Shown: in pieces, positions 49,269 through 64,000 of the stretch
Position numbering within the stretch: the stretch's first letter is position 1
Layout of the letters: the number at the start of each line of letters is the position of its first letter
IMG/VR virus record: IMGVR_UViG_3300037189_024986
Span: 1 to 64,000 of that record
From: a virus
DNA length: 64,000 bases
Strand: one strand, 5' to 3'
The notes under the pieces: model-generated
The model's input: only the letters and a program-made list of their open reading frames with translations
Database searches by the model: none
What the model was told of the DNA's origin: nothing
Translations under genes and position numbers: made by a program

Positions 49269-49682
49269 TCAGAGTGTAATATTAAATCTTTCTAAGAAGA
49301 AGGTTGTTGATAATTCTTTAATTTCTTTTGTATAGATAATGACTTGTTGAAATTTATTGTCTAACAACCATTGAGACTTTATTTCGTCGTTCTTTATTCC
49401 TTTTAAAAAACTGGCTCTAGAATTATTATGAAAATAATGAAAGTCTTCATGCTGTGGGCCATGAACTTCTATAGCGATTTTTCTTGTAGCATTTAAAATA
49501 TCAACTTTCAATAAGCTTCCGTAAACAGGAAATTCTTCATATACGATATTATTTTTCCAATAAGGATATAAAAATTTTTTTACATCAGCTTGAGCAATGG
49601 AGCGAGACTTCTTATCCCATTTGATAAGAAATCTCGTTACATTCTTATTAATCAATTTACCATTTACGCTTAAAAGTCTCAT
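49269..49682 (-). CDS. Vsr/DUF559-like PD-(D/E)XK endonuclease candidate
   Basis: This 137-residue protein shows the compact nuclease pattern of Vsr and DUF559-type enzymes: KVDILNATRKIAIEVHGPQH with Asp61, Glu72 and the following His-Gly-x-Gln-His segment. A helix comes after it where a D...K..WL pattern (NDEIKSQWLLDN) matches the family's end. The usual Glu-x-Asp or Glu-x-Lys is Glu-x-His, so activity needs care. It overlaps the recombinase stop by four bases, so it probably acts with it, for example in processing recombination intermediates or homing-type cleavage. The family is inferred from motifs. Confidence 0.6.
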   Translation of the reverse strand: MRLLSVNGKLINKNVTRFLIKWDKKSRSIAQADVKKFLYPYWKNNIVYEEFPVYGSLLKVDILNATRKIAIEVHGPQHEDFHYFHNNSRASFLKGIKNDEIKSQWLLDNKFQQVIIYTKEIKELSTTFFLERFNITL

Positions 49683-50773
49683 GCTTTGTTCAACGCATTT
49701 CTAAATTTATTAAAAAGATAATCTCTAATATCAGTATGCTCTTCTAAATATTTTCTAAGATTGTCTGAGCCTTGATGTTGTTTTTCCATTTCCAATTTAT
49801 TTTCTTTTAGTTCCGTCAATAGAGAATCAGAAATCGTTACCCATGCACCTTTGGCAAGCGCAAACTGCCAAGATAAAAGCTGGTCAATAATTTCGTATTC
49901 AATCCAGACGCTTTGTCCATCTTTGCGGCCATATTTGATTGGATACTTTACCTCTGTTCCTGTCTTTTCATTTGGCGTCTTGCGAAACATTATTTTGCAC
50001 CAATGACCAATGGGTTTCTCTTCCTTATCTTTAATGATATCTTTTTGCCATCTCTGCTGAAATTCAAGAATCCAATCGCTGTAATGCAAAGCGGCATTTC
50101 CTCCTGAAGCATTTGTGACCTTTGGGTCGCCTTTGACATATTGGCTAATCTGAATAGATGAGCGAACTTGAGAGATTAAGAAGCAGATATGCCCTCTGCT
50201 TGAGAACGCTGCCGCCATCTTCCTAAGAAGGTCTGCCGTCAACAATGCTGCACCAGCAGTTTTATTTGCTTCTGTCGCAGATTTAAGCAAATCATTTCTA
50301 GGAACAAGGGCGTCAAGAGAATCAAGGATAAAGAAATAATATTTATCATCATCTTTATCTCTAATAAGACCTCTCATTAAGTCGATTACAAATTCGTAAT
50401 CGTTAGTAGGAATGACTCTCCATTGATTTGGGTCAGTAGAAACCCCAGACCTACTAATAATGTCCGCGCTTAGTCTTCCTTCTGATTTGATATAAATTAC
50501 TTGACCTTTCTTTGGATGAAGCTTTTGAAAACTTGCTGCAAAAGCCATTGCATTGCTTGTTTTTCCACCCTCGGTGATTCCACTAGAGCGCACAATTCCT
50601 GGGCGAATTCCTCCACCCATCTCAATATCTAAATTGAGACTGCCGCTGCTAACGACATAATCTACTGCTTCGTCAAAAGCATAATGATATTCAGAATTGT
50701 CCTTAAGATATTTGTCTAGGACAGTCATTTGCTTATTATCTGGTTCTTCTTTTTGTTCTTTGATTTTTGCCAT
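49679..50773 (-). CDS. RecA/UvsX-like recombinase
   Basis: This 364-residue protein has the RecA core: SGSLNLDIEMGGGI at about 43-56, a Walker A GITEGGKTS (65-73), a Walker B FILDSLDAL (148-156), and a mobile loop and strand segment ICFLISQVRSSIQ (about 196-208) with ASGGNAALHYSDWILEF following. The C-terminal part is short. It should form filaments on single-stranded DNA and promote strand exchange for recombination-dependent replication. The nuclease gene downstream overlaps it by four bases; the upstream gene ends four bases before it. Confidence 0.88.
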   Translation of the reverse strand: MAKIKEQKEEPDNKQMTVLDKYLKDNSEYHYAFDEAVDYVVSSGSLNLDIEMGGGIRPGIVRSSGITEGGKTSNAMAFAASFQKLHPKKGQVIYIKSEGRLSADIISRSGVSTDPNQWRVIPTNDYEFVIDLMRGLIRDKDDDKYYFFILDSLDALVPRNDLLKSATEANKTAGAALLTADLLRKMAAAFSSRGHICFLISQVRSSIQISQYVKGDPKVTNASGGNAALHYSDWILEFQQRWQKDIIKDKEEKPIGHWCKIMFRKTPNEKTGTEVKYPIKYGRKDGQSVWIEYEIIDQLLSWQFALAKGAWVTISDSLLTELKENKLEMEKQHQGSDNLRKYLEEHTDIRDYLFNKFRNALNKA

Positions 50774-50777
50774 AATG

Positions 50778-51167
50778 TTATTTATATAAATTTAAAAAGT
50801 CTTTTAGGGATTTGGGTTGTTTTTTAAAAACAGTGTCTTCTCCTATTTTATTTTGAGACAGCATTATTTCCTGATGTTTAGGAGAAAAATCGGAAATAGA
50901 TTTTTTATAATTAAAAAACTGCTCTTGCAAATATTGCTGCCCATAATCCGCAATAAAATAAGCAAGAGATGGTACTTTTTTATTATACGGAGGAATAACC
51001 CAAAGAAGAAAATCTGGATTATACTTTGCGCAAAGAGTATTTGCAATCTTCATTTCCCTTGGCCAGAAATACTTTTCAGAGAAACTGGCTGGATCAATGA
51101 ATTTAGAAATAATTTTATGCTGAATCTTCGGCTCTTTTTTAAGAGGTTTTTCTTGAATTAATTTCAT
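50778..51167 (-). CDS. Hypothetical protein
   Basis: This 129-residue basic protein has a Lys/Glu-rich N-terminus and a central segment (KIANTLCAKYNPDFLLWVIPP) that looks like a helix and strand, then a helical C-terminus. No family was recognised. The start overlaps the dehydratase gene by 29 bases, and the end is four bases before the recombinase gene. It stands at the border between the glycan and replication genes and could belong to either. The small recombinase-adjacent position suggests a DNA-related accessory role, but nothing in the sequence proves it. Confidence 0.5.
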   Translation of the reverse strand: MKLIQEKPLKKEPKIQHKIISKFIDPASFSEKYFWPREMKIANTLCAKYNPDFLLWVIPPYNKKVPSLAYFIADYGQQYLQEQFFNYKKSISDFSPKHQEIMLSQNKIGEDTVFKKQPKSLKDFLNLYK

Positions 51168-52212
51168 TTACATCTGATAGTACCATACGTTCTACCAGTT
51201 TGTCAAATGAAATTTTCGGGGTCCAGCCGAGTTCAGTTCTTGCAAGCGTTGAATCCCCCAAAAGAATATCAACTTCCGCAGGGCGATAAAATTTTGGATT
51301 AATTTTGACCAAAACAGAGCCTTTGACATTCAAATCTTCCGCCAATTTATTTGTGATTGAATATTCTTCGCTCAAACCCTTTCCGTGCCATGCTCCATCA
51401 ATTCCAGCAACTTTAAATGCTTTTTCAATAAATTCTCTAATGGAATGCGTTTCGTTAGAAGAGAGAATATATTCCTTTGGCTTTTCTTGATTCATCATTA
51501 GCCATACGCCTTCAATAAAGTCTTGTGCATGAGACCAATCGCGTTTTGCATCAATATTTCCAAGTTCAAGCGGGGCGAATTCTTGATTATTTTCTATTGC
51601 GTTTTTAATTCTTGCTACATTGGTCGTGATTTTTCTTGTAACAAACTCAATGCCGCGTCTTTCGCTTTCATGATTGTATAAAATACAATGAACAGCATAT
51701 AAATTATAAGAATCTCTATAAACTTTGGTTAAATGTCTTGCCGCAGCTTTTGCTGCTCCATACGGGCTTCTTGGACGAATTGGATGGTTGAGGTCTTGAG
51801 GGGTATAAATTACATCCCCCATCTCTTCAGAGCTTCCTGCGCTGTAAAAACGACAATGTGGTGCAAATTTTCGGATAGCTTCAAGGCATCGAAGCACTCC
51901 CATTGCTCCCGCATCAAAAGTCTGCTCTGGGATTTGCCAACTGATACCTACAAAAGATTGAGAAGCGAAATTAATAAAATAATCTGGATTAACTTCTCTA
52001 ACAACGTTTTCTATTGATTGAGAATCACACAAATCTCCTGTGACCAATTGGAATCGGGGATTTTTTAATGCATTTTCAATATTTGAATAGTCTGGTTTAG
52101 CAGATCTTCTAACCATCCCATAAATTTGATGATTAGTATGTTCAAGCAGATAGTCTACCATATAAGACCCATCTTGACCAGTCACGCCCGAAACTATAAT
52201 TTTCTTATTCAT
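51139..52212 (-). CDS. gmd: GDP-mannose 4,6-dehydratase
   Basis: This 357-residue SDR enzyme converts GDP-mannose to GDP-4-keto-6-deoxymannose. It carries the Gmd signature VTGQDGSYM (10-18), NFASQSFVGISW (81-92), the active-site SAGSSEEMG (124-132), RPRSPYGAAKAAA with Tyr151 and Lys155, and NHESERRGIEFVTRKIT (the NHESPRRGxxFVTRKI signature of the family). The length is typical. The product is the precursor of GDP-fucose, GDP-rhamnose and GDP-colitose. The next genes include an SDR enzyme and a fucosyltransferase-like protein. Overlap with the preceding SDR gene is four bases, so they are co-translated. Confidence 0.93.
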   Translation of the reverse strand: MNKKIIVSGVTGQDGSYMVDYLLEHTNHQIYGMVRRSAKPDYSNIENALKNPRFQLVTGDLCDSQSIENVVREVNPDYFINFASQSFVGISWQIPEQTFDAGAMGVLRCLEAIRKFAPHCRFYSAGSSEEMGDVIYTPQDLNHPIRPRSPYGAAKAAARHLTKVYRDSYNLYAVHCILYNHESERRGIEFVTRKITTNVARIKNAIENNQEFAPLELGNIDAKRDWSHAQDFIEGVWLMMNQEKPKEYILSSNETHSIREFIEKAFKVAGIDGAWHGKGLSEEYSITNKLAEDLNVKGSVLVKINPKFYRPAEVDILLGDSTLARTELGWTPKISFDKLVERMVLSDVNEINSRKTS

Positions 52213-53015
52213 AGTTCATTATAAATCTGCTTGATACCATTTGTCAAGTTTATTTTGGGATTCCAAAGATTTAAAATATATTTATCTGGTTCATTTTTCT
52301 TATTCATTTGGATATCGTATGAATCTCCAATAGAAATTGAGGCACCAGACATAGAAGAAATTATTTTGGCTATGTCAATAATCTTTGTCCATTCAAAGTT
52401 TGTAATGTGAAGATTTTCATTTCTGGAAATTTCTTGATATTTATTCATTAAAATCTCAAGACATTCAGAACAGTCATCTGCGTGCAAAAATTGCCTCTCT
52501 TCTTCTCCAGAAGTTTTTATGGCAATGTGGCCTTTGCTTTTTGCTGCTTTGATAAAATCAGTGATTACATGAAACTTCTTTTCGTCTGTTTCTAGCCCAT
52601 AAACATTCCAAAATTTAACAAGCAATCCGCCAAGATTTTGAGTGTACTTCTCTCCTATAGACTTCAATAATCCATAATTTGAATAACTCATATTTGCCAT
52701 TTGACTTGAAGCAAACAAAAATGGGGTTTTGTATTTTTCTAAAGACTCAAACGTATAAAGCATAAGCTTCATATTGTTATCCATAAATTCTTTGGTATCT
52801 TGATACTTCTTCAAATATGTTGAGCCTCCCACATCAAACGCTAAAAAGAATACAAAATCTATTGATGGCAAAATAGTATTTAAAATGTCTTTTTGTCGCA
52901 AGTCTTGTTCTGGATTTTTTTCTATATCAAATTCCTTAACATTATGATTTTTGCTGAGATGGTTTTTTAATGCTGCGCCAATTTGACCTTGAGAACCTAG
53001 TATTAAAATGTTCAT
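52209..53015 (-). CDS. SDR-type nucleotide-sugar epimerase/reductase
   Basis: I chose ATG 53015 rather than the ATG at 53033, because it starts the Rossmann fold directly and gives a four-base overlap with the previous gene. The 268-residue product has a GSQGQIGAAL nucleotide-binding loop (7-16), a VFFLAFDVGGSTYL segment, an FASSQMA strand, the catalytic Tyr114 and Lys118 (YGLLK), and RQFLHADDCSECL before the C-terminal part. This last segment matches the REFxHVDD pattern of GDP-fucose synthase and related epimerases, as does the VGGS stretch. Following Gmd, it may reduce the keto intermediate. The family is certain; the exact reaction is not. Confidence 0.7.
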   Translation of the reverse strand: MNILILGSQGQIGAALKNHLSKNHNVKEFDIEKNPEQDLRQKDILNTILPSIDFVFFLAFDVGGSTYLKKYQDTKEFMDNNMKLMLYTFESLEKYKTPFLFASSQMANMSYSNYGLLKSIGEKYTQNLGGLLVKFWNVYGLETDEKKFHVITDFIKAAKSKGHIAIKTSGEEERQFLHADDCSECLEILMNKYQEISRNENLHITNFEWTKIIDIAKIISSMSGASISIGDSYDIQMNKKNEPDKYILNLWNPKINLTNGIKQIYNEL

Positions 53016-53842
53016 ATATGTTTTAAAAAGCAATTTTCATATAACCATTTGTCTGGTGAAGCAAATTTCTGAAATTTATTAAAATTTTCTTCAATTACTT
53101 GCTTTTTGTTATTATAGTCTTCTACGCTAATTTTTGCCAGTATCTGTTTCAGGTCTTCTATTGTTTCCCAAGTATAAAATCCATCTTTATTAAAATGATT
53201 TGACATATTTGGGTCTCCCCAATAAATAGGAATACATCCCGAAGCAAAACAATCAATAATTTTATCTGTAAAATAATTGGGAAATCTACAGTTTTCCGCA
53301 ACTATCATATACATATAGTCTTTAAATGGCGCCACTCTTCCATCTGGCTCATCGCTAAACCATTTATAACCACTTCCCCAAAGTTCAAGTTCGGGGTGCA
53401 AATTCATGGATATCAATTTGTGGCGAAGCTGATGTCCTGGAGCATAATTTTTATTTGATGCAACAATTGATAATAATTTGTTCTTGGGATAGATTTTGCA
53501 ATTTTGCTTTGGTATCCAACAAGCCCCACCGCAATAAGCTTGTTTATATTTTGGATTATTTGGGATTGGAGCGTAAGTATAAATATAATCAAATTTATGT
53601 TCTATTTGATGAATATGATTGATTACATACGGTTTTATTATTGGACTTTCTGCTGCTAGTGCAATTTTGTATTTTGATTTAACTTTGTCTACAATTGGGT
53701 CAAAACACATTTCATCTGTAAATAAAGATATGCCGTCAAATTCCATTAGCGGGGGCTTGATATATTCTACCAAAGGCTCTGGCCAATGCATGTTAATATA
53801 AGGTCCATCTCCAGTATTCTTGTCAAAAAAATTAATTTTCAT
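53012..53842 (-). CDS. GT10 (alpha-1,3-fucosyltransferase-like) glycosyltransferase
   Basis: This 276-residue protein ends in the GT10 donor-binding signature: MIVAENCRFPNYFTDKIIDC and ASGCIPIYWGDPN (about 179-212). It corresponds to the FENxxxxDYVTEK and GxVPIYWG motifs of fucosyltransferases. The N-terminal half carries the acceptor-side strands (IALAAESPIIKPYVI). GT10 enzymes use GDP-fucose or a related GDP-6-deoxysugar. Gmd two genes downstream makes the precursor, so donor and transferase are encoded together. Overlaps of four bases connect it with both neighbours. The acceptor is unknown. Confidence 0.8.
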   Translation of the reverse strand: MKINFFDKNTGDGPYINMHWPEPLVEYIKPPLMEFDGISLFTDEMCFDPIVDKVKSKYKIALAAESPIIKPYVINHIHQIEHKFDYIYTYAPIPNNPKYKQAYCGGACWIPKQNCKIYPKNKLLSIVASNKNYAPGHQLRHKLISMNLHPELELWGSGYKWFSDEPDGRVAPFKDYMYMIVAENCRFPNYFTDKIIDCFASGCIPIYWGDPNMSNHFNKDGFYTWETIEDLKQILAKISVEDYNNKKQVIEENFNKFQKFASPDKWLYENCFLKHI

Positions 53843-54537
53843 ATATTTTTTTTGTGTTCGTCTATCTTTTTCTCCAATTCTGCTTCTGTATAGTCTTGAA
53901 AATGCTGAAAACCTCGTGGGGACATTTGGCGACCCAGATAATTAATTATTGCTTCTGGATTATTTGAAATATCATGGATATGAGAATATACGCATTCGTT
54001 TGCTTTGGCCGTTATATATCCTTTTGTTGCGGCTCTGTATGCAAGCTCTCTTTCGCAGCCAAGTGGGGAAGCAATTTCATCATAAACATAATCTCCGCAA
54101 TCTTTTATCATTTTAGATTTTAAACCCAAAACAAATCCCTGCGGTATTGATACTATGTCGTTTGGTTTTCCTCCCATTCCCACGCATGAAATTCCTATAT
54201 TATCTGGGATAAGTGTCTCAACTAAAGACTTATATGTCGCTGGATGAACTGCACAATCATCACTCAACATTATTAAATATTTTGACCAAGAAATTTTGTA
54301 TGCTAGATTTATAGCTTTTGCAAATCCCATATTTTGACTGGAAAAAATAAATCTTGTTATTCTTGGCTCATTTTTTGCATATTCTAATATTTTCCAACTT
54401 TCTTCTGAGTAAAAATTTATAATTAAAATAAATTCATCAGGTGGGAATCCGCTATATGCTTCCTCGACTCTTTTTTTGATATTATCTAAAGATTTATAGC
54501 CTATCGTTAATATTGCATAATTATTTTTATTATCCAT
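53839..54537 (-). CDS. GT2 glycosyltransferase, rhamnosyltransferase-like
   Basis: The start at 54537 fits better than 54555, which would enlarge the overlap with the previous gene. The 232-residue product has a GT-A fold: an AILTIGYKSLDNI start, an FIFSSQNMGFAKAINLAYK segment typical of GT2 rhamnosyltransferases, and an IMLSDDCAVHP metal-binding segment (Asp-Asp in place of DxD). It ends in a helical tail with many Glu and Lys. It overlaps the GT8-like gene by eight bases. It probably adds a sugar to the same glycan as its neighbours. Confidence 0.72.
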   Translation of the reverse strand: MDNKNNYAILTIGYKSLDNIKKRVEEAYSGFPPDEFILIINFYSEESWKILEYAKNEPRITRFIFSSQNMGFAKAINLAYKISWSKYLIMLSDDCAVHPATYKSLVETLIPDNIGISCVGMGGKPNDIVSIPQGFVLGLKSKMIKDCGDYVYDEIASPLGCERELAYRAATKGYITAKANECVYSHIHDISNNPEAIINYLGRQMSPRGFQHFQDYTEAELEKKIDEHKKNI

Positions 54538-55222
54538 AGAGTTCCTTATAGTCATTTTCTATTGTTTGGAATTTATTTCCATTTCCATACTTGCATGGAC
54601 CGGCATAATGAATAAAATTGGAGTTATATCTATTATTCTGTTCGTCAAATTCTCCCAAATCCATTCTGTTGAAGCTATGAGATAAAGATTTAAATGGAAT
54701 TTTGTTCTTGGCTACAGCAAAATTTAAAGCAGTTTGCTCTCCTCCGTCAATGCTAAAGCATTTTTGTGTAAATTGAATTTTTGAAATCAAAGAAAATAGA
54801 TTAACGTGAGGCTTTGAATATAAAACGCACCCAGAATTAAAATACATTTTTCTGTTATCTATCAACGGCCATTCAAAATCTGGACTATAAGTATCAATCC
54901 AGGAGTCCCTTTTCATATGTTCTGCATCGCCGTTTTCATTGAATGCGTATAAATAATTTTCGTCTGGATATTCTTCAAATATATTTTTTGCAGAAGGGGT
55001 AACTAATACGTCTGCATCTAAACATAATACTCTATCATATTCTTCCAAGAGTTCCAAACATTGAAATTTTTCAAAATAGTGATTTATAAAATTATATTTT
55101 TGCCCATTGCACAAAAAGAAAGACAATTGATATTTTTCTGCGTATTTTGCTATAGAATTTAAACAAAATTTATATCTGGAAGGATCTCCAAGAGCCAAGC
55201 TGAATATTGCTAATTTTTTCAT
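54530..55222 (-). CDS. GT8-like glycosyltransferase
   Basis: This 230-residue protein has a GT-A fold with a strong DxD metal site in YDRVLCLDADVLVTP (Asp69, Asp71). A NSGCVLYSKP segment follows, as in GT8 glycosyltransferases, and a GGEQTALNFAVA strand-helix. The C-terminal HYAGPCKYG segment resembles the HxxGxxKPW end of GT8 enzymes. It starts inside the last 53 bases of the GT9-like gene, an unusually long overlap, but the first ATG begins a good LAIFSLALGDPSRY strand, so I keep it. The sugar donor is unknown. Confidence 0.7.
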   Translation of the reverse strand: MKKLAIFSLALGDPSRYKFCLNSIAKYAEKYQLSFFLCNGQKYNFINHYFEKFQCLELLEEYDRVLCLDADVLVTPSAKNIFEEYPDENYLYAFNENGDAEHMKRDSWIDTYSPDFEWPLIDNRKMYFNSGCVLYSKPHVNLFSLISKIQFTQKCFSIDGGEQTALNFAVAKNKIPFKSLSHSFNRMDLGEFDEQNNRYNSNFIHYAGPCKYGNGNKFQTIENDYKELYG

Positions 55223-56210
55223 TATTTATAACTTCTTTTATTATATATTCTGCGAGTAATTTCGGAGATAAATTCTCGCATTCTCTTTTGCATGATTGAG
55301 ATAAATTTTCTCCACCAAAAGCTTCTAAAAAATATGATGGACATTTCTTTCTGCATTCTAAATGCAAATGACTTGGAAAAAATGAATTTCCAAGTTTAAA
55401 AAATTCTACTTTATTAATTAAACACGCTTGAAACAAAACAATGGGCTTATTTCTTATATTAAATGCATGATGTACTCCGCCATCACTCATTATTCCATAA
55501 TCCATAAAATCTACATTCCTTATTAAATTAAAAATGTCTCCTGTGTCTGGGCAATGCTCGTCTCCAATTCCAAAATTTTCTTGAGAAAACTCAAATATTT
55601 TTATTCTAGGATTGGAATATTTTAATGTTTTTACTAGCTCTTTCCATGATTCTAGCCCTTTCATACCATTAAATCTAAACCCTTTTCCATCGCAATGGGG
55701 GTGAGGCGTTGTTTTGCCTGAAAGTTTTGTGGTGGGAACAATTCCTATGTTAATAAAATTAGTATTATTTTCGTATTTTGGCACATTTATTTCTGATAAA
55801 AAGCTTTGTTTTTTATCAAAAAGTAGGTTTTCTAGCCCTAATTGAAGTAGGTAATTCAATGTGATTATATTTGCTGTTGGATGGTTTTCTAAAAGTTCAG
55901 CATTATCTTTCCAGAATGTAAACGTCTTTGGGTGCCAATCTGGATAAATTACCTTTATATTTTCTATTTTCTCATCCGAAAGGGCGTATTGATGATAATT
56001 AACGTATATTTCTTGCTGATTTGGTTCTCTAACCAAGTCTACGTTTTTATCCAATTTAAATATATCTATAAGAAATCCATAAGTGATTACTTCTAGGGTG
56101 CAATCTGGATATACTGATTTTAAAATCTTGGGAACAAAAGTAAAAATTAAACTATCCCCAAGGTTTTTTGGAAATATCCATCTTGGAAAATATAATCGAA
56201 TATTTTTCAT
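55170..56210 (-). CDS. GT9-like (heptosyltransferase-type) glycosyltransferase
   Basis: I chose ATG 56210, which gives the usual four-base overlap with the previous gene and begins directly with the Rossmann strand (KNIRLYFPRWIFPKNLGDSL). An upstream ATG at 56282 would add 24 basic residues. The 346-residue product has the GT9 GDxL start, IFTFVPKILKSVYPDCTLEVITY, then a second Rossmann half with KTFTFW, IKIFEFSQENFGIG, and a SDGGVHHAFNIRNKPIVLFQA segment (the DSGxxHxAxAxGxPxxxLxG motif of GT9). The C-terminus has a Cys-rich LECRKKCPSYF...SCKRECEN stretch, which may bind metal. It belongs to the glycan island. Confidence 0.72.
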   Translation of the reverse strand: MKNIRLYFPRWIFPKNLGDSLIFTFVPKILKSVYPDCTLEVITYGFLIDIFKLDKNVDLVREPNQQEIYVNYHQYALSDEKIENIKVIYPDWHPKTFTFWKDNAELLENHPTANIITLNYLLQLGLENLLFDKKQSFLSEINVPKYENNTNFINIGIVPTTKLSGKTTPHPHCDGKGFRFNGMKGLESWKELVKTLKYSNPRIKIFEFSQENFGIGDEHCPDTGDIFNLIRNVDFMDYGIMSDGGVHHAFNIRNKPIVLFQACLINKVEFFKLGNSFFPSHLHLECRKKCPSYFLEAFGGENLSQSCKRECENLSPKLLAEYIIKEVINNEKISNIQLGSWRSFQI

Positions 56211-57025
56211 TCTATTAACTCTTTTATTCCATTTTTTATATCTATTTTTTGCACAAAACCCATCTTTTTTATCTTTTCGCAATCTAAAACCATATCTTTT
56301 GTCTGTACTATTTTATGGAAATTTGACGCTTCTATAGGAGTAATTTTACTCGTAGACCCTGTTTCTTTTATTATAAAGTCAATAATTTCTCTAAAGTTTT
56401 GTGGAATTCCGCTCCCTATATTTATTATCTGATTGTGGTCTGAATTATTAATACATAAATTGATTGCATTGCATACATCAGAGACATGCATATAATCTCT
56501 TACAAATTGGCCATCATTATATAATTCTATATCTTCTTTATTTTTTATTTTTTTGACAAGATACTGTAACGCATTTTTTTGTTTAGATATTCCTTTGTCA
56601 TTCTTACCGTAAACATTACATAGTCGAAGTATTCTATATTTTATATTAAACGTTGCGCAATAGCTTATAATTAAATCTTCTGCGCATTTTTTTGTTATAC
56701 TATAAAAACCTTTTGGATTACAGCAAAAATCTTCCTTCGCTGGTAAATCAACATTTCCATAAACAAACCAGCTGCTTATAAAATTAAAAGTAATATCTTT
56801 GTCTTTGCAGTGACTTAATACTTTTAATAATTTAATTAAATTTGTATTTACATCTTTGTAGATATCATCGAATACATGATAATTATGAGTGGTGCTAATC
56901 ATGTATAGCACATCTTTAAATAAGGGAATATCGCCTGCCCTGTTGTGTATATGGGTAGACTCAGGGTACAGATTATAATAATTGCTACCTATAAATCCTG
57001 TGCCGCCAAACAAGTCAACTTTCAT
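56207..57025 (-). CDS. NAD-dependent SDR epimerase/dehydratase
   Basis: This 272-residue extended SDR enzyme has a GGTGFIGSN nucleotide-binding loop (7-15), NFISSWFVYGN, the active-site Tyr108 and Lys112 (YSITKK), LRLCNVYG, and DYMHVSDVCNAI. It modifies a nucleotide-linked sugar, probably as an epimerase or keto-reductase. It overlaps the aminotransferase-fold dehydrase by 11 bases, so they probably act one after another: dehydrase removes the 3-OH, then the SDR reduces the 4-keto group. That order is inferred from the way dideoxysugars are made elsewhere. Confidence 0.78.
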   Translation of the reverse strand: MKVDLFGGTGFIGSNYYNLYPESTHIHNRAGDIPLFKDVLYMISTTHNYHVFDDIYKDVNTNLIKLLKVLSHCKDKDITFNFISSWFVYGNVDLPAKEDFCCNPKGFYSITKKCAEDLIISYCATFNIKYRILRLCNVYGKNDKGISKQKNALQYLVKKIKNKEDIELYNDGQFVRDYMHVSDVCNAINLCINNSDHNQIINIGSGIPQNFREIIDFIIKETGSTSKITPIEASNFHKIVQTKDMVLDCEKIKKMGFVQKIDIKNGIKELIE

Positions 57026-58316
57026 ATTTCGACAAAACTTCTTGAATATATTCTATATTTTCTTTTGATATTGTTGGGGAGCATCCGACAAAGAATACTA
57101 AATCCAGAACTTTATTCGATTCTGGATATTTTTTATAATCATCAAGGTGTTTATAGCCTTTATGCATTAGGAGATTGCCTGCAAAATAATTACGGGTCTG
57201 TATACCATTTTTCTCTAAATAATTAACTAGATTGAGCTTTTGAGTCTTATTGTTGCAAATGATAGGTACTCCAAATGGAACCCAATCTGTATCACTCAAG
57301 CATTTTGGAAATCTTATGTCTTTGACGTTGTCTTTGAACACTTTCCATATTTCTAATAAATTATCTGCTCTTTTTTCGCAAATAAAGTCAAGCTTCTTTA
57401 ACTGTTCTATTCCTATTGCCCCTTGCAAGTCTAAAGGTTTTAGATTGTATCCAATTCTATTGAATACATATTTATGGTCAATTATTGTGTCTGGAAAGTC
57501 ACTTAGCCAGTTTGAAAATCTCTTTCCACAAGAGCCATTGGCTAAAAGATTACATGTTCCTACGCACCAGCAATCTCTTCCCCAAGTTCCATAGCTTCTG
57601 GCTAATTGAACAATTTGCTCTATGTCAGAAGATACCATTCCGCCTTCTAAAGTGGTTATTTCATGCGCTGGATAGAAAGAACATGATGAAGCTATAGCAT
57701 ATTCATTTAAATATTTGCCTTTCCATTTTGACCCAAGAGAATCGCAATTATCTAGCAAAAGAGTGATGTCTCCCATTTCGCATATATTTAATAAAACATC
57801 CATGTCTGGTGGATTACCCAATACAGGACTTAAAAATATTGCTTTTGTATTTTTGGTAATTTTGTTTTTTAATTTGTCAAGATCAAAGTTTAAAGTATCC
57901 CATTCAATATCTATAAATACTGGTTTCAGTCCATTTTGAACTATTGAAGATACTGTCGTTGGGAATCCCACCGCAGAAACAATAATTTCATCTCCGTCTT
58001 GCCATTTAAAATATTCTTTGCAAGCGGCAATTAAAAGTAAATTTGCTGAACTCCCGCTATTGGTAAAAAATGAGAACTTTTGATTTGTCTTTTTTCCAAA
58101 TTCTTTTTCAAATTGGGCGCATGTTTCTCCAGAGCTTGACCATTTTCCAAATAACAAAGCTTCGATTGCTGCCGCCATTTCATTCTCATCAAAAAATGCT
58201 CCTGAATAATAAACTTTATTCTTTGGAGCATTCAGATTATGGCAAAACTTTGGAAGATTTCCATGTTCTTCCTGTAGTTTTAATATGAAATTTTTTATGA
58301 CTTCTCTTTTATCCAT
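57015..58316 (-). CDS. E1/RfbH-like PLP and [2Fe-2S] hexulose 3-dehydrase
   Basis: This 433-residue protein belongs to the DegT/DnrJ/EryC1 aspartate-aminotransferase-fold family. The usual PLP lysine is replaced by His218 in YPAHEITTLEGG, the same change as in E1 (His220) and ColD, which remove a 3-hydroxyl and do not transfer an amino group. It also has the E1 iron-sulfur cysteines: Cys191, Cys249 and Cys251 with the same X57 and X1 spacings as E1, plus Cys255 and Cys263. Asp189 is the PLP-ring ligand. This predicts a CDP-4-keto-6-deoxyhexose 3-dehydrase, a step toward 3,6-dideoxyhexoses. No E3-type reductase gene is seen in the window, and whether the nucleotide is CDP or GDP is open. Confidence 0.85.
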   Translation of the reverse strand: MDKREVIKNFILKLQEEHGNLPKFCHNLNAPKNKVYYSGAFFDENEMAAAIEALLFGKWSSSGETCAQFEKEFGKKTNQKFSFFTNSGSSANLLLIAACKEYFKWQDGDEIIVSAVGFPTTVSSIVQNGLKPVFIDIEWDTLNFDLDKLKNKITKNTKAIFLSPVLGNPPDMDVLLNICEMGDITLLLDNCDSLGSKWKGKYLNEYAIASSCSFYPAHEITTLEGGMVSSDIEQIVQLARSYGTWGRDCWCVGTCNLLANGSCGKRFSNWLSDFPDTIIDHKYVFNRIGYNLKPLDLQGAIGIEQLKKLDFICEKRADNLLEIWKVFKDNVKDIRFPKCLSDTDWVPFGVPIICNNKTQKLNLVNYLEKNGIQTRNYFAGNLLMHKGYKHLDDYKKYPESNKVLDLVFFVGCSPTISKENIEYIQEVLSKYES

Positions 58317-58330
58317 AATTTATTATTGTT

Positions 58331-59056
58331 TTATCTATTAAATCCAATTTTATCGTGATTAACAAGGAATTTTAGATATATTTTTTCTGCCCCTTTGTTT
58401 ATTTTCTCTGAATATTCTGGACTTCTGTTCTCATAATCATAAGTATAATTAACCAAAAGCTTTGGAATATTATAAAATTGATAATGTTTCACTGCTCTGC
58501 TAAATAAATCATAATCTTCGCTAACACAAGAATCGTCATATCCCCCGCATTTAGTCAATATTCTTTTGTTAAAAATTAAAGATGGGTGAGCCATTGGGTT
58601 GTTTCCAATATGATAACTGTGAAGAATTTGTTCGTGTGTTTCTGGATAAAAAACTTCTTTGACCCCATCTTTTGTATGAAAGAACATGCCTGTTCCGCAA
58701 ACATCAATTTTATTTTCAATGACGAATGGCAGTTGAATTTCTATCTTATTTAATAGCCATTCATCATCACAGTCAAGAATTGAAAAATAATCACAATCAG
58801 TGATTTTCATTGCTGTAAAAAGACTAGTATTTCTTCCTGCCACTAATCCTTTTTCTGGGCTTTTTGCATAAATTATATTTTCATACTCCGATACAACTTC
58901 TAAAAGGTTGTCTGTCGAGGCGAGATCATTTACTATAACTATTTTATAATCAAACATACCCTTTTTAAAGGCTGTTTGATTAACTATAGAATCAAGAGCT
59001 TTTTTTATTATTCCTGCTCCGTTTTTCACCGTCATTAAGATTGCAATTGTTTCCAT
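58331..59056 (-). CDS. GT2 glycosyltransferase
   Basis: This 241-residue protein is a GT-A family 2 enzyme. It starts with IAILMTVKNGAGIIKKALDS and NQT, then VIVNDLASTDN, GLVAGRNTSLFTA and the metal-binding SILDCDDEW (Asp95, Asp97, Asp98). In the second half, CGGYDDSCVSEDYDLFSR matches the acidic catalytic region (the ED of GT2). The order of motifs is complete. It precedes the dehydrase gene by 14 bases. It likely adds one residue to the island's glycan; donor unknown. Confidence 0.82.
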   Translation of the reverse strand: METIAILMTVKNGAGIIKKALDSIVNQTAFKKGMFDYKIVIVNDLASTDNLLEVVSEYENIIYAKSPEKGLVAGRNTSLFTAMKITDCDYFSILDCDDEWLLNKIEIQLPFVIENKIDVCGTGMFFHTKDGVKEVFYPETHEQILHSYHIGNNPMAHPSLIFNKRILTKCGGYDDSCVSEDYDLFSRAVKHYQFYNIPKLLVNYTYDYENRSPEYSEKINKGAEKIYLKFLVNHDKIGFNR

Positions 59057-59059
59057 TTT

Positions 59060-59668
59060 TTATAATAGTTCGTCTAATTTAAAGTCTTTTCTTTTAAAAA
59101 TCGCGCAAAACACTCCTTCGCTATCGTAAATGTTATGAAGATTTAAATAACAAAAAAAGTCAAAATTGTTCTTGGAAAAAGTCTTTACCCACGTTTTTTT
59201 ACATTTCCTATTTATGTGCGTTGGATCTTTTTCTGAGATTTCCAATACAAATTTTGCGTTATCTTCAAGCGGGACAGGTATTCTTACGAGAACAAAATTA
59301 GATTTTAAATTGGTTAAAATTTCATCGACTTCCTTCTCTGGAATATGCTCTAAAACATCTAAAAAGAAAACAAGATTTTGCTGAGGTATATTTTTTGGGT
59401 CAAAAACAGTAAAACCCTTTGATTCTGTGACTGACCTTGCCCAATTTGATATTTCTACTCCATGGATTTTATTATAACCAATCTGTTTAAATCCCTGCAT
59501 TAAAAAACCGACGGCACAACCATAATCAAGAATTGGTTGATTTTTAAAATCAAGACCCATGCTATCAAAAAAAGAATCTATTTCTCTTGCAAGCTTGGCA
59601 TATCTTTGGCCTCTAGAAAGATAATTTTTATAATTATTTGTCTCGTAGTATTCTTTTTCAAAGTTCAT
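59060..59668 (-). CDS. SAM-dependent methyltransferase, class I
   Basis: This 202-residue protein has motif I ILDYGCAVGFLMQGF (46-60), the HGVEISNWARSV segment (motif II, Glu contacting ribose), and FFLDVLEHIPEKEVD, where the post-I region holds the L-x-H-x-x-P-type pattern of sugar methyltransferases. It most likely methylates a sugar of the glycan or an intermediate. The N-terminal EKEYYETNNYKNY helix is typical of the Methyltransf_23 group. The stop and next start are four bases apart, and it overlaps the radical SAM gene by four. Confidence 0.78.
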   Translation of the reverse strand: MNFEKEYYETNNYKNYLSRGQRYAKLAREIDSFFDSMGLDFKNQPILDYGCAVGFLMQGFKQIGYNKIHGVEISNWARSVTESKGFTVFDPKNIPQQNLVFFLDVLEHIPEKEVDEILTNLKSNFVLVRIPVPLEDNAKFVLEISEKDPTHINRKCKKTWVKTFSKNNFDFFCYLNLHNIYDSEGVFCAIFKRKDFKLDELL

Positions 59669-60771
59669 GGGAAGTTTTTGTCTGGCATATCATTACATAC
59701 GGTATGCAATAGTTTATTATTAAATTTATAATAGCAGTATTTACAAGTACTTTCCCAATTTTCGCCATTATTATTTTTTATTTCGTATGGGAAACCTTTT
59801 TCTTTAAAGTTTTCGTTTATTTTATTCCATGTGACAATAATGTCTTCAACCTTGCATAAAGAATAGTCTAAATCATAATTTCTTTTATTCAAAACATGAC
59901 TTGTGCATGTATAGACATGGTATTCATTTTTGCCATGTGGGTCTGGGGCAACATAGGGGCGAATCATTCCTACATAGCATCCATCATTAAATGGAGAGTC
60001 ATCATATCCAATGTCTTTGATAAAGATTTTATTAAATTTGTCTACTTCATCAATCGTTTCTTGAAATTCCTGTCTTACACTTGCGTTGTTTCCTTTTATT
60101 AAGCAATTTCCTGCTATTCTAACGAATTTAATTTCTGGATTCAATTCAAGGACTTTTGCAATTCTTCTAATTGTCTCTGCGTTCGTGGGCGTATATTTCT
60201 TTCCAATTCTTGTTCCTGTTCCAGATTCTTCATCATAAATAATGTAAGAAAGACCCATTTTATTGGCTGGAAAAGAACAAAAGTCATAGTCTTCTGGATT
60301 AAATCCTTCGTCTAGCTTAATTAAACTTATTCTTATCCAAGAAATTTTATCAAAGTTTTCTTTTTTAATTTTGTTTAGTTTTAGGGTATTAGTAATTATT
60401 CCAATAAAATAACCAAGTTCATTTGCATATTCTATGATTGAATTAATATCATCACCTGTGTCTTTGTCTCTATAAATCAAAGGCTCTCCTCCGCCGGTTA
60501 TTTCTACGCTTTTTGCACCCAGCAACTTGAAATCTCTTAGAGTTTGCTTTATTTTTTCAAATGGCATATAGCTCTTAAGTGGTCTTTCTGCAACCGAGCA
60601 AAATGGGCAACCGCTTGAGCAAGCCTCAATTGGCGCGAGTTGAATAGTTATAGGTTTAAAAGTTCTATCTTTTTGAATTGAATGCAGAACGTCTGTATGT
60701 TGAAGAAGCTTATCTCCCCAAGTGCTGTATTTTTGGGTAAGGTCTTGATGTTTTTTTGTTTTGTTTTCCAT
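59665..60771 (-). CDS. Radical SAM enzyme with SPASM-like C-terminus
   Basis: This 368-residue protein has the radical SAM iron-sulfur motif CSSGCPFC (Cys51, Cys55, Cys58) in the standard position, a VEITGGGEPL segment (the GGE motif for SAM binding), and a TIM-barrel pattern. The last third has several cysteines (DGCYVG, VYTCTS, YSLCKV, ESTCKYCYY, HTVC), as in SPASM or twitch domains that hold an extra cluster. Radical SAM enzymes carry out hard radical reactions, for example deoxygenation, epimerisation or methylation. Its place between a methyltransferase and a glycosyltransferase suggests sugar modification. The substrate cannot be read from the sequence. Confidence 0.82.
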   Translation of the reverse strand: MENKTKKHQDLTQKYSTWGDKLLQHTDVLHSIQKDRTFKPITIQLAPIEACSSGCPFCSVAERPLKSYMPFEKIKQTLRDFKLLGAKSVEITGGGEPLIYRDKDTGDDINSIIEYANELGYFIGIITNTLKLNKIKKENFDKISWIRISLIKLDEGFNPEDYDFCSFPANKMGLSYIIYDEESGTGTRIGKKYTPTNAETIRRIAKVLELNPEIKFVRIAGNCLIKGNNASVRQEFQETIDEVDKFNKIFIKDIGYDDSPFNDGCYVGMIRPYVAPDPHGKNEYHVYTCTSHVLNKRNYDLDYSLCKVEDIIVTWNKINENFKEKGFPYEIKNNNGENWESTCKYCYYKFNNKLLHTVCNDMPDKNFP

Positions 60772-60774
60772 ATT

Positions 60775-61569
60775 CTATTTTATTAGATAAGCAAATTTAT
60801 CTCTATTTTTCATTACATAACTCGGTAGGCCAATTGAATCGTCTTTAACGATATGAAATCCATTTCTATCATAAGGGTCTCTCAATGAGTCTCTTCTTTC
60901 TTTTATTTTCTCGACAGACAGGTATTCTGGAGAATGATACTCGCTATGAGAGCTTGCGAGCATTTTATAAGCAATTTGATTTTCATCTCCTAAATGAGAA
61001 AAATGCCAGCCAGAATTGTAAATTCTATTAAGATGGTCTTTTGATTGCCTTACGTCATTAAAGTTTTTATTTTTTAAATTTTTATATCTATCGCAAACAA
61101 CAGAAGGAAACCAATAATGATTATCTGGAGACAATATCGGAGTATTCATATACCAGAAAAATCCTCTTAGAGTTAAAACGCATGGGAAAGTTTTAAGTTC
61201 TGATACGGATTTTGCCGTAGGAATTTCATCTAAATCAGAAAACATAATGATATCTTCGTCATCGCAATGAGCCAAGGCATTTTTTACCGCATCTCTTTGA
61301 AGAAACATTAATGAATGCCTATGTTCGTCACCTTTGTTATAAAATTCTGAAGAAGGGTTCTGCAAACCTTTCTCAAGTTTTAAATAAATAATCTTATCTT
61401 TGTATTTTTGATATATTTCTGAATTTTCAAGATAGAATGGCTTTTTTACATTAGAAACAGTAATATCTGATTCGCAAATAACAAATTTATCAACTACATC
61501 TTTTAGTTCTTCAATTCTTATTTCTAAAATGTGGGTTTCGTTTAAAAAGTTAAAACAATCGTAAATCAT
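60775..61569 (-). CDS. GT17-like glycosyltransferase
   Basis: This 264-residue protein matches family GT17 (beta-1,4-N-acetylglucosaminyltransferase III type): MIYDCFNFLNETHILEIRIEEL and VVDKFVICESDIT at the N-terminus, then LQRDAVKNAL, IIMFSDLDEIPT (Asp112, Asp114, Glu115 as metal site), and WHFSHLGDENQIAYKM with SHSEY. All landmarks are in the family order and the length is close to bacterial members. It adds a sugar, often GlcNAc, to an oligosaccharide or protein glycan. The acceptor is unknown. It is four bases from each neighbour. Confidence 0.82.
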   Translation of the reverse strand: MIYDCFNFLNETHILEIRIEELKDVVDKFVICESDITVSNVKKPFYLENSEIYQKYKDKIIYLKLEKGLQNPSSEFYNKGDEHRHSLMFLQRDAVKNALAHCDDEDIIMFSDLDEIPTAKSVSELKTFPCVLTLRGFFWYMNTPILSPDNHYWFPSVVCDRYKNLKNKNFNDVRQSKDHLNRIYNSGWHFSHLGDENQIAYKMLASSHSEYHSPEYLSVEKIKERRDSLRDPYDRNGFHIVKDDSIGLPSYVMKNRDKFAYLIK

Positions 61570-61573
61570 ATTT

Positions 61574-62416
61574 TTATTCAGTTATGATGTTCCAAAAATC
61601 AAATGATGCAGTATTGCATTTATTTAAAAACTCTTTCATTCCGAGTCTTTTCATTTCATGGATACATCCTATCTTATCATTAATCATCATTTCCATTCCT
61701 GATAAAGCTGCCTCTCCTGCGGCTCTACAAAAGGGTTCATCTATTCTAGGGAAATATATAAAAGTTTTATATTTATTATATAGTTCGGGCATCTTTTCGT
61801 GAGATACTTTTCCAAGGAATTCTATATTTGGAATGCTTGTGGCTAAATGTTCAAAAATCTTTTCTCCCCATCCAGCGACGACAAATTGTATTTGCGGATT
61901 ATCTATAGCGTATCTAAAAAAGTCAAAAGTGCCTTTGAATTCGTGCATGAATCCAACGTAAAGGACTTTATCTTCCCTATTATTCTTATTATCAAAAAAG
62001 ATAGATGAATCTATTGGGTCTGGAACTATTCTAACGTTAATAAAATAATCTCCGTAATGATTTTTAAATAAATTATAATGATATTCAGTTAGGAAGAATG
62101 CATTTTTGCAGCTTGTGTAAAGCTGATGTCTTTTAGACTGAGAAAGATATCTATTCATATCATGCTCGACTCTTGAATGAGCTTTTGCAGAAGATAAATA
62201 ATCAATTATAAATGGATATTTCTGGTTTAAAAATTCAAGATTTGCAGAAATCACATGGTCGTAAGAGTTTTTAAGCAATTCTGGGTCTGAATCACAAGTA
62301 AAATGAGTTATATTTAAACCCATCTGCCTTCCCTTTTTAATAATAATATCATCGCTTCTTTGAGCGCCTCCAGGACTATGCAAGATTGAAAAATCAGAAA
62401 CCCAAAGAATGTTCAT
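61574..62416 (-). CDS. GT4 glycosyltransferase, compact
   Basis: This 280-residue GT-B enzyme is short for the family. It starts with the acceptor-side MNILWVSDFSILHSPGGAQRS motif, has VRIVPDPIDSSIFF and KVLYVGFMHEFKGTFDF, then FVVAGWGE and the donor-site FPRIDEPFCRAAGEAALSGM, corresponding to the E-x7-E motif of GT4 (Glu and Glu spaced normally). The typical C-terminal helices are reduced. It is predicted to be active; donor unknown. It sits in the middle of the glycan island with short gaps to neighbours. Confidence 0.82.
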   Translation of the reverse strand: MNILWVSDFSILHSPGGAQRSDDIIIKKGRQMGLNITHFTCDSDPELLKNSYDHVISANLEFLNQKYPFIIDYLSSAKAHSRVEHDMNRYLSQSKRHQLYTSCKNAFFLTEYHYNLFKNHYGDYFINVRIVPDPIDSSIFFDNKNNREDKVLYVGFMHEFKGTFDFFRYAIDNPQIQFVVAGWGEKIFEHLATSIPNIEFLGKVSHEKMPELYNKYKTFIYFPRIDEPFCRAAGEAALSGMEMMINDKIGCIHEMKRLGMKEFLNKCNTASFDFWNIITE

Positions 62417-62426
62417 ATTTTATATA

Positions 62427-63272
62427 TTATCTATTCCACGAAATAGCGTGGTTTTTAATTAGACCATCATTCTTGTCTATATATTCAAAAATAAATTCTA
62501 TTTGTGGTATATTGGTACTCTTTGCTTCCCTGAGTTTTCCAAAAAGATCTTTTAATGATACTGTTTTGGGTATATTTATTTCTGCGAGTTGCTGTTTTAA
62601 GGCAGAGTATCCTGTAACTTTCTTAATATAAATATGTGACTTAGATTGTTTTAATAATTTAAATATTTGAGTAAAAAATATATCATTCTGACTCTTTGTA
62701 TAAGAAGTTAGATTTCCAAATCTAACAGATTTAAATGCCACTGCGCCATCAAAATAATCTAATCCAAAATTAAAAACATCATCGCATTCAAATTTTATTC
62801 CATCTTCATCTAAGAAATACCCATAAAAAGTAAAAATTTCTTCATTAGCTTTTATATCTTTTGAGGCAGTAAATATAAATGTTTTATCTTTTATTTTCCA
62901 CTCAGCATTGTTTCCGCTGTTTGAAGTATTGTAGATTGGTCCAAATCCCAATGGTAAAACTGTATAAACTACTTCTTCTCCATCTGGATGATATTTTGGC
63001 ATCCATTTAAAATAATAATCTTCCGCATCTTTAAAACCAAGATTCTTTCGAAGATTTTCTATGAATTTTTCTTTTGGATGAAGAAGGTTTTGAGATTTTA
63101 ATGTATCAATAATTGGCTTTAAAGATAATACTTGCTGTGGGAGAACAATAAATGGCGACTCTTCTAGCGTCTCTCCATTTTGAATATCCTCTTTTGCAAA
63201 TACCCCAAATCCTTCTATTGGAGAATTTCTTACTTCTATTTTAGATGAGAAAATCAGTTTGTTTTTTTGCAT
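62427..63272 (-). CDS. SET-domain protein, putative lysine methyltransferase
   Basis: This 281-residue protein carries a SET domain: IEGFGVFAKEDIQNGETLEES at about 19-39 (the GxGVFA and xGE motifs), LPLGFGPIYNTSNSGNNAEW (in place of the NHSxxxN region) and FTASKDIKANEEIFTFYGY (GEEI-x-x-x-Y). Residues about 190-281 form a helical end of unknown role. SET enzymes usually methylate lysines in proteins using S-adenosylmethionine; phage members could modify host or phage proteins. The motif where the active-site His should be is altered (Asn-Thr-Ser), so activity is uncertain. It overlaps the next upstream gene by 32 bases. Confidence 0.7.
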   Translation of the reverse strand: MQKNKLIFSSKIEVRNSPIEGFGVFAKEDIQNGETLEESPFIVLPQQVLSLKPIIDTLKSQNLLHPKEKFIENLRKNLGFKDAEDYYFKWMPKYHPDGEEVVYTVLPLGFGPIYNTSNSGNNAEWKIKDKTFIFTASKDIKANEEIFTFYGYFLDEDGIKFECDDVFNFGLDYFDGAVAFKSVRFGNLTSYTKSQNDIFFTQIFKLLKQSKSHIYIKKVTGYSALKQQLAEINIPKTVSLKDLFGKLREAKSTNIPQIEFIFEYIDKNDGLIKNHAISWNR

Positions 63273-63600
63273 GAGGATGTTTCTTTCCAGTTCTCTGTTC
63301 GTATTTCAATTCTGCATTTCTACGCATTTCATCTTGACCAGAGTTGCCTCCTCTTTTTTCAGAAAGCTCTGCGCTTTTATCCCACAATTGTCCTAAAGAA
63401 TAATTTTTTTGCCTAGTCTTTCTTACAAAGTCATTTGGGTCGGTTAAACTTAACTGTGTATCTATTGAAGCCTGTGGTTTACAAAATTCTCTTTGCCATT
63501 TTACACCTTTTTCGTCTATATAAATATGTTCATCGCTCATAGCTTGAACGACTTCTATGATTTTTCCATTTTCTGGATGAGAGAATGTATAAATAGGCAT
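63241..63600 (-). CDS. FmdB-like small protein without zinc cysteines
   Basis: This 119-residue protein begins with MPIYTFSHPENGKIIEVVQAMSD-like residues. This resembles the start of FmdB/CxxC_CxxC_SSSS-type small proteins (MPxYxFxC..CG..FE), but the cysteine pairs are absent. The rest is Gln/Lys/Glu-rich and helical (DEMRRNAELKYEQRTG). Such proteins are frequent in phages with no known function. It ends within the SET gene by 32 bases, so the two may be translated together. Confidence 0.5.
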   Translation of the reverse strand: MPIYTFSHPENGKIIEVVQAMSDEHIYIDEKGVKWQREFCKPQASIDTQLSLTDPNDFVRKTRQKNYSLGQLWDKSAELSEKRGGNSGQDEMRRNAELKYEQRTGKKHPHAKKQTDFLI

Positions 63601-63603
63601 ATC

Positions 63604-64000
63604 TTAAATAGTTATATCAAAATTATCTGAAATTGGTACGCGAGACGCAATGAATAAAGCCCTTGATTTTTCCTTTATTGGAATAGAAAAACAATTTACA
63701 AAACCTTTTATACCCATAGCTTTTTTAAAGTCAATAAATTCTTCTTCATTACACGAGACTTCTCCACAAATAGATTTAACATTCTTTTCTATTAGCTTAG
63801 AATTTGTAAGGATTTCTCTTTCGGCATATCCTATATTTAATTTCATTATATCAATTTCTTCTCCATAGCAGTATTCTGTTAAAATAGTATCTAAGTTATG
63901 GCATTGACATGGATAATAATTTTCCTGTTCTTCTTTAATTAAACCAATGGAAGACAAGTCGAAATAGATATTATCAACAAATTCTGGAGTAGAAAATCTA
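63604..64000 (-). CDS. FkbM-type methyltransferase, C-terminal part, cut by the window edge
   Basis: The reading frame is open to the right edge, so the start lies beyond the window; the TTG at 63957 is probably internal. The visible part (about 131 residues) has LDTILTEYCYGEEIDIMKLNIGYAE followed by REILTNSKLIEKNVKSICGEV. This matches the DxL...IDxxKxDxEGxExxxLxGxxxxL...xExx pattern of FkbM methyltransferases, with the DVEG replaced by NIGY. The usual catalytic residues are therefore partly changed. As a possible sugar or peptide O-methyltransferase it would fit the glycan island. Confidence is limited by truncation and divergence. Confidence 0.5.
   Translation of the reverse strand, partial: RFSTPEFVDNIYFDLSSIGLIKEEQENYYPCQCHNLDTILTEYCYGEEIDIMKLNIGYAEREILTNSKLIEKNVKSICGEVSCNEEEFIDFKKAMGIKGFVNCFSIPIKEKSRALFIASRVPISDNFDITI

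Follow-up and report, generated by a model that had tools for sequence, protein, structure and literature searches.

The window analyzed here is a stretch of 64,000 nucleotides comprising bases 1-64,000 of the IMG/VR virus record IMGVR_UViG_3300037189_024986 (G000, 82,247 bases), of which bases 63,000-82,247 (L002) were also read. Glycan genes occupy positions 51139-65396 on the minus strand, arranged head to tail in an island of 13-14 kb that leads directly into the genes for recombination and replication. The best explanation for this island, to which we give evenly divided confidence, is that it represents the variable half of a glycosylation system inherited together with the replication genes. 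Only tentatively do we extend this to a large lineage of uncultured tailed phages having an inherited system of its own, composed of GDP-mannose 4,6-dehydratase (GMD, gene gmd) and three dedicated glycosyltransferases (GTs), with swappable cassettes for 3,6-dideoxy and methylated sugars. What is new relative to known phage glycan islands is the conserved core within the replication operon. The usual account of sugar clusters in phages is that of a variable cargo which alters the host surface; GMD and three transferases descending with the replication genes would make sugar transfer a part of the lineage's way of life. If true, this would be the equivalent, among bacteriophages, of the capsid glycosylation of chloroviruses, and cassette exchange would vary the virions in the manner of serotypes. 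The four conserved genes and a few candidate donors (GDP-6-deoxy and GDP-3,6-dideoxy hexoses) make the question of the acceptor testable.

A conserved core beside the replication genes

The minus strand holds all 30 listed genes from 41437 to 67017, the largest gap being 88 nt, in agreement with an earlier note on this DNA, which described the glycan genes as running without break into replication genes. After gmd follow a small gene, recA, an endonuclease-like gene, dnaB, a primase gene, a nuclease-like gene (cas4-like by eye) and a split dnaE, and the junctions between island and replication genes are mostly overlaps or gaps of a few bases. Island and replication genes may form a single transcription unit. 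The start of the island at 51139 stands as given in that note, which placed the end at 64000; the block continues to 65396, 1.4 kb beyond the window, with an FkbM-type gene and a GT4-fold transferase in L002.

Relatives were collected from IMG/VR with three GMD sequences (best 80 of 247 relatives used) and with DnaB (best 80 of 313). Among these best 80 gmd loci, recA is located downstream of gmd on the same strand in 79, at a distance of 640 nt or less in 63 of the 79, and gmd is present upstream in 35 of the 46 DnaB loci for which 9 kb or more of sequence is available on that side. Over 71 distinct loci, mean pairwise identity is 61% for gmd, 47% for recA and 46% for DnaB, and the distance correlations are r 0.46 for gmd-recA, 0.26 for gmd-DnaB and 0.60 for recA-DnaB; the history of gmd appears to be mostly one of vertical descent with some exchange.

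Searching IMG/VR with DnaE yielded six loci, in the sister phage G001 (97% identity, 97,275 bases), in G002 (57%, 202,704 bases) and in the outgroup G003-G006 (27-28%). Two GT4-fold transferases, GT645 and GT364, were each found in 18 of the 22 related records searched, that is, in all 18 lineage relatives (G001, G002 and G007-G022) and in none of the four outgroup records. Likewise, a GT9-like gene is present in 19 of the 23 records when G000 is counted (19/19 in the lineage, 0/4 in the outgroup). All three core transferases persist even among records whose proteins have diverged by 60% or more. GT645 sits 6.3-8.8 kb beyond DnaB in 32 of the 48 DnaB loci that extend 9.5 kb or more downstream, and one subgroup has ribonucleotide reductase (RNR) genes and GT364 upstream of gmd, with no further recognised glycan gene close by. 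In G011, where 140,000 of 143,730 bases were scanned with 74 glycan queries, only gmd, GT364, GT645 and the GT9-like gene were matched. On the other hand, most island genes of the window recur in only 0-11 of 158 other loci, the commoner ones being the RfbH-type gene (33), a small gene at 63241 (28) and one short-chain dehydrogenase/reductase (SDR) gene (26).

Neither GT645 and GT364 (at E 1e-5) nor the capsid candidate of G001 found a match in 50,697 deposited phage records, and the lineage is without a close deposited relative. Literature searches returned no recognised description of this lineage or of the conserved gmd-recA pair; the moraphage lineage was considered and rejected, since its phylogeny, as presented in PMC12619734, is built on a family B polymerase and this lineage has DnaE. 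A genome scan with gmd for the host gave seven loci, none with recA or dnaB as a neighbour; four of them, with gmd of 52-62%, lie on contigs of metagenome-assembled genomes (Woesebacteria, Flavobacteriaceae, "uncultured bacterium" and Proteobacteria). Shine-Dalgarno cores precede 9 of 72 genes, compared with 5.0 in shuffles, which only hints at a host group that uses such sites little.

Cassette exchange between close relatives

G000 and G001 have most proteins in common, with 83-99% identity gene by gene. There are exceptions. The segment 59060-61569, with genes for a methyltransferase, a radical S-adenosylmethionine (SAM) enzyme and a GT17 transferase, is represented by only 0.55 kb at the corresponding position of G001, which carries two additional genes, radical SAM/SPASM and Glyco_trans_1_2-like, between gmd and the SDR gene. 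Further exceptions are the SET-domain gene (71%), a single gene at 75 kb and, at 78-81 kb, a group of three that G001 does not reach because its record ends before them. Two adhesin/LamG-like genes at the left end of the window (13-1895) are only 27-31% identical to those of G001, as against 83-99% for most other shared genes, so that the presumed binding end of the particle seems to have been swapped too, like the glycan island.

DNA identity between the two phages reaches 95-99% over most of 53.0-57.5 kb and most of 61.6-62.4 kb, compared with mostly 87-90% elsewhere nearby, and synonymous divergence (dS) is 0.03-0.16 for genes wholly within these tracts versus 0.77 pooled over ten replication genes. 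Island genes are thus replaced in blocks and also exchanged as alleles. Gene-by-gene comparison of these two close relatives shows that genes between gmd and GT364 have been swapped as cassettes, two of them in the sister phage. A general test over all loci of whether the region upstream of gmd is more variable than that downstream came out negative: in 34 pairs with 78-85% gmd identity, more of the upstream than of the downstream region could be aligned (median 0.67 vs 0.25). The apparent cause is a subgroup in which that side carries RNR genes and the conserved transferases but lacks an island. Evidence of cassette variation thus comes from G000/G001 and from L084/L090/L091. A sigma-70-like match (12/12 consensus) at 52218-52247, 6 nt before the gmd start, was rejected as a promoter candidate, as it is not conserved in G001 or other loci; this sequence lies about 60 nt or less from a cassette junction.

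Sugar chemistry and the possible acceptor

We propose, with the chances roughly level, that the phage makes GDP-6-deoxyhexoses, here GDP-3,6-dideoxyhexoses, and glycosylates a component of its own, most likely virion proteins. GMD would convert GDP-mannose of the host into GDP-4-keto-6-deoxymannose, the one sugar nucleotide whose synthesis by the island is evident. An E1/RfbH-type enzyme would then take off the 3-hydroxyl, and reduction by an SDR would yield a GDP-3,6-dideoxyhexose; where this enzyme is missing, the product would be a 6-deoxyhexose, for example GDP-D-rhamnose or GDP-L-fucose. The conserved cytosolic transferases would begin a short glycan on a phage-encoded acceptor, most likely virion proteins, the GT10, GT2, GT8, GT17 and GT1 enzymes would extend it, and the FkbM and Methyltransf_23 enzymes would methylate it, cassette exchange altering the outer sugars. 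The branched, methylated deoxysugar glycan suggested by the earlier note is a fair reading of the enzymes.

The E1-like dehydrase named in that note is encoded at 57015-58316 and reaches 349 bits with the RfbH model NF011936 (curated cut-off 423). Its best match in the PDB is E1 (3bcx, 231 bits), followed by ColD (169 bits). Aligned to 3bcx, it has His in place of the Schiff-base Lys at the pyridoxal phosphate (PLP) position, which we take to be residue 220 as counted on that alignment, and Cys at all four Fe-S positions by hand count, the spacing around the [2Fe-2S] cluster of E1 presumably being C-X57-C-X-C-X7-C. Both features are common to this protein and E1 (CDP-6-deoxy-4-hexulose 3-dehydrase, RfbH/AscC). 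ColD-type relatives occur elsewhere in the lineage, such as that of L158, which is nearer to ColD than to E1 (137 vs 71 bits). Among 38 distinct DegT-type proteins near lineage loci, 30 have His and 7 have Lys at the PLP position and one is unreadable, a ratio that may be tilted by the six seeds of the search, four of which were His and two Lys. Enzymes of the His type remove the 3-hydroxyl, as is established for ColD and E1, and with His in 30 of the 37 readable proteins, 3,6-dideoxyhexoses are a likely theme of the lineage. E1 uses a CDP-sugar; given the GMD gene of the phage, the substrate here may be bound to GDP. Minimal members lacking a 3-dehydratase would presumably need a bifunctional GMD or a host reductase; the bifunctional GMD of the chlorovirus PBCV-1 is reported to give GDP-D-rhamnose (PMC4691112).

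In structural comparison, GT364 is matched best by B736L of chloroviruses (Z 29.1, root-mean-square deviation 3.1, 329 aligned residues), ahead of BshA (Z 27.6), with 13% identity in the structural alignment, and no orthology at the sequence level is claimed. For B736L, GDP-mannose is described as the best ligand and a transfer of D-rhamnose onto the viral glycan has been suggested (PMC4691112). Virus-encoded GMD and GT4-fold transferases are found both here and in chlorovirus virion glycosylation (PBCV-1 GMD, B736L, Vp54 glycans), and a conserved transferase core with variable additions is likewise described for chloroviruses (PMC4691112; PMC7826918). The chlorovirus system is that of a eukaryotic virus with a demonstrated capsid glycan, whereas the glycan proposed here is a predicted one. 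Among viral proteins, GT364 matches best a phage protein of 936 aa that carries the annotation FkbM and may represent the neighbouring genes 63604 and 64302 fused into one.

Several observations weigh against glycosylation of virion proteins by an inherited system. The upstream region (9 kb or more) lacks gmd in 11 of the 46 DnaB loci. Its presence in 16/16 of the relatives G007-G022, besides G001 and G002, is largely by construction, as these were picked from the gmd and DnaB loci and are mostly known gmd carriers; this does not apply to the counts of GT645, GT364 and the GT9-like gene. Known relatives of the RfbH-type enzyme act on CDP-sugars, and the sugar of the phage itself is bound to GDP. 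The fold matches of GT645 are tied between BshA (Z 31.4) and B736L (Z 31.1), and a common GT4 fold, seen in predicted models, shows no function. N-glycosylation sequons display no general enrichment in tail proteins. Furthermore, the transferase core sits with replication genes rather than virion genes, which suits a DNA acceptor too, and acceptor, glycan and transcript are all proposed from gene content.

Alternatively, the island could alter the host surface polysaccharide (O-antigen or capsule) during infection and block the attachment of competing phages, which we regard as unlikely but as a serious rival. This is the published reading for the clusters of cyanophages and pelagimyophages, which vary between relatives (PMC7824862, PMC7029224), and the high variability of the island, the surface-polysaccharide loci in which RfbH, GMD and GT8 types are at home, and the early-side location of the genes all fit it. 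The earlier note drew on the position with replication genes as well; that argument is weak, since gmd is a fixed neighbour of recA through the broad lineage whatever lies upstream, and the place of the island may therefore reflect descent rather than timing. A simple hydropathy scan found transmembrane-like segments in 0/17 proteins of 51139-65396, hence no GtrA-, Wzx- or PglC-like protein there, in contrast to GtrABC-type seroconversion, which relies on a flippase and transferases in the membrane. The same three transferases throughout a divergent lineage would also be odd if the acceptor were a host polymer differing between hosts. Both points would still be compatible with a host glycan assembled at the inner leaflet.

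Glycans on phage DNA bases as protection from nucleases, which would keep gmd and the transferases with recA and dnaB, seem distinctly improbable. The flanking of the replication block by gmd and GT645 in most loci, the Cys-rich insert of GT645, which could bind nucleic acid, and a deoxynucleoside monophosphate kinase gene in the same gene run speak for it, and DNA-glycosylating phage transferases exist (Pyle 2024, as cited in PMC12619734). However, a relative of thymidylate synthase/dCMP hydroxymethylase (PF00303), the latter being part of T4-type DNA glucosylation, is absent from 22 of the 23 records, with 9 of 14 control genomes positive; G000 and G001, both incomplete records, are among those lacking it. 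Ten or more sugar genes would also be many for base modification. Tet_JBP was found in 0/19, with the positive control equally silent. Very improbable, finally, is a passing load of host surface-polysaccharide genes with no stable role. It would suit the differences in island genes between relatives with 97% identical DnaE and the occurrence of most accessory genes in few or no other loci, yet the ratio of nonsynonymous to synonymous divergence against G001 is 0.095 pooled over 13 mappable island genes (a set that leaves out gmd, which fell out of the mapping filter, and three accessory genes without counterpart), catalytic motifs are in place, and gmd and the three transferases are retained lineage-wide. 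For a target the earlier note had offered virion proteins or the host O-antigen. The absence of membrane proteins among the 17 scanned, the lack of PF00303 in 22 of the 23 records and the core kept across a divergent lineage make a phage-encoded protein acceptor the most economical proposal, with virion proteins as the usual candidates, and the evidence leans that way.

The glycan or lipopolysaccharide clusters of cyanophages and pelagimyophages (P-SSM2, S-B05, S-CAM7) likewise contain runs of SDRs, GTs of several families and methyltransferases, and the combination typical of cyanophage clusters, several GT families with one to four NAD-dependent epimerase/dehydratases, is found in the island. 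S-B05 has an RfbH relative (53.5%) in a long glycan run adjoining an endosialidase gene, and in S-CAM7 the region upstream of a tail-fibre gene encodes GMD, another epimerase, an enzyme of the DegT type and GTs. Unlike these two clusters (Kyanoviridae), which adjoin tail-fibre-type genes, the present island lies inside the recA-dnaB-dnaE block, its neighbours being recA, dnaB, primase and dnaE genes with no tail-fibre gene adjoining, and belongs with a core, GMD plus the three transferases, that is conserved. Complete cyanophage clusters are reported to include a sugar kinase and a nucleotidyltransferase (PMC7824862), for which no Pfam match was obtained among the island proteins scanned; these also held no gene of the CDP-glucose pathway.

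Genes of the island and other features of the records

All enzyme classes named in the earlier note were recovered by Pfam or NCBIfam matches within 51139-64000, with family E-values that exclude chance as the source of the calls. The genes that follow are all on the minus strand. The three SDR or dehydratase enzymes are gmd (51139-52212; PF16363, 4e-106; TIGR01472 350 bits, under the cut-off of 415; best PDB match GDP-D-mannose dehydratase 2z1m, 299 bits), a reductase/epimerase-like SDR (52209-53033; PF01370, 2e-17; GDP-L-fucose synthase weak, 45 bits) and a nucleotide-sugar epimerase/dehydratase (56207-57025; PF01370, 2e-30; best PDB match UDP-glucose 4-epimerase, 68 bits). The second of these is 89% identical to its G001 counterpart over 268 aa, with a divergent N-terminal part and a near-identical remainder. 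Instead of seven transferases of different families, six have a Pfam match, in five families: a fucosyltransferase-type GT10 (53012-53842; PF00852, 7e-8), two GT2 (53839-54555, PF00535, 6e-11; 58331-59056, PF00535, 1e-15), GT8 (54530-55222; PF01501, 1e-8), the cassette gene GT17 (60775-61569; PF04724, 3e-26; no G001 match) and a GT1/GT4 transferase (61574-62416; Glycos_transf_1, PF00534, 1e-7). The last is 96% identical in amino acids to that of G001 (dS 0.094) and lies within a recently exchanged tract. The seventh (55170-56282), perhaps GT9-like by eye only, matches no Pfam or NCBIfam family and is 98% identical over 347 aa to its G001 counterpart (ATG start, 346 aa). The gene at 57015-58316 is called as an E1/RfbH-type sugar 3-dehydratase dependent on PLP or pyridoxamine phosphate.

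Two methyltransferases had been counted, and both are there, Methyltransf_23 in the cassette (59060-59668; PF13489, 1e-8; no G001 match) and a SET-domain protein, a probable protein-lysine methyltransferase (62427-63272; PF00856, 8e-11); the count falls short by the FkbM-type enzyme (63604-64299; TIGR01444, 54 bits, above cut-off), which crosses the window end with its C-terminal part inside. The SET protein, here in a bacteriophage, diverges fast (71% between the sisters, compared with 92-96% for its neighbours) and weakly matches the histone methyltransferase vSET of PBCV-1. The radical SAM enzyme (59665-60771; PF04055, 4e-9) carries CX3CX2C at residue 51; this cassette gene has no counterpart in place in G001 and is 27% identical to a different radical SAM protein there.

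In the conserved core, GT364 (record positions 64302-65396, L002) has no Pfam match and a GT4-type fold predicted by AlphaFold2 with a confidence (pLDDT) of 92; GT645 (29259-31196) shares the GT4 fold and bears both an insert rich in Cys and an extension at the C-terminus; and the GT9-like transferase (28072-29256) reaches 17.2 bits with PF01075, under the cut-off. Beside gmd lie recA/uvsX (49679-50773; PF00154, 9e-16; phrog_97, UvsX-like) and, between the two, a small gene (50778-51167) conserved through most of the lineage. It is present in 37 of the 46 DnaB loci for which 9 kb or more of upstream sequence is available, and its product ends in a K-P-K-S-L-x-D-F-L-like tail. The DnaB-like replicative helicase is encoded at 47368-48852 (PF03796, 5e-21).

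Elsewhere in the records, the RNR gene is immediately followed by a complete gene for tmRNA (L002:7643-8017; record positions 70642-71016; 128 bits with Rfam), whose tag is unusual; the sister G001 has this gene as well (L017:10238-10612). The sister's RNR gene (L017:7226-10126) contains an in-frame insert of about 310 aa after about residue 96, beginning with Cys and intein-like, which is lacking in G000. Its tape-measure open reading frame is also longer through an in-frame insert (2765 vs 2530 aa). The plus strand carries, apart from the island and beyond the point where the sister record stops, genes for a phosphoesterase-like protein and a glycosyltransferase of the MJ1255 type (L002:15217-16976). 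The distant phage G004 has a glycan island of its own (L020:7600-19400), beside an apparent capsid gene; by eye, it encodes a relative of RfbH (40%), the two halves of a transketolase-like enzyme and an SDR resembling 4,6-dehydratases.

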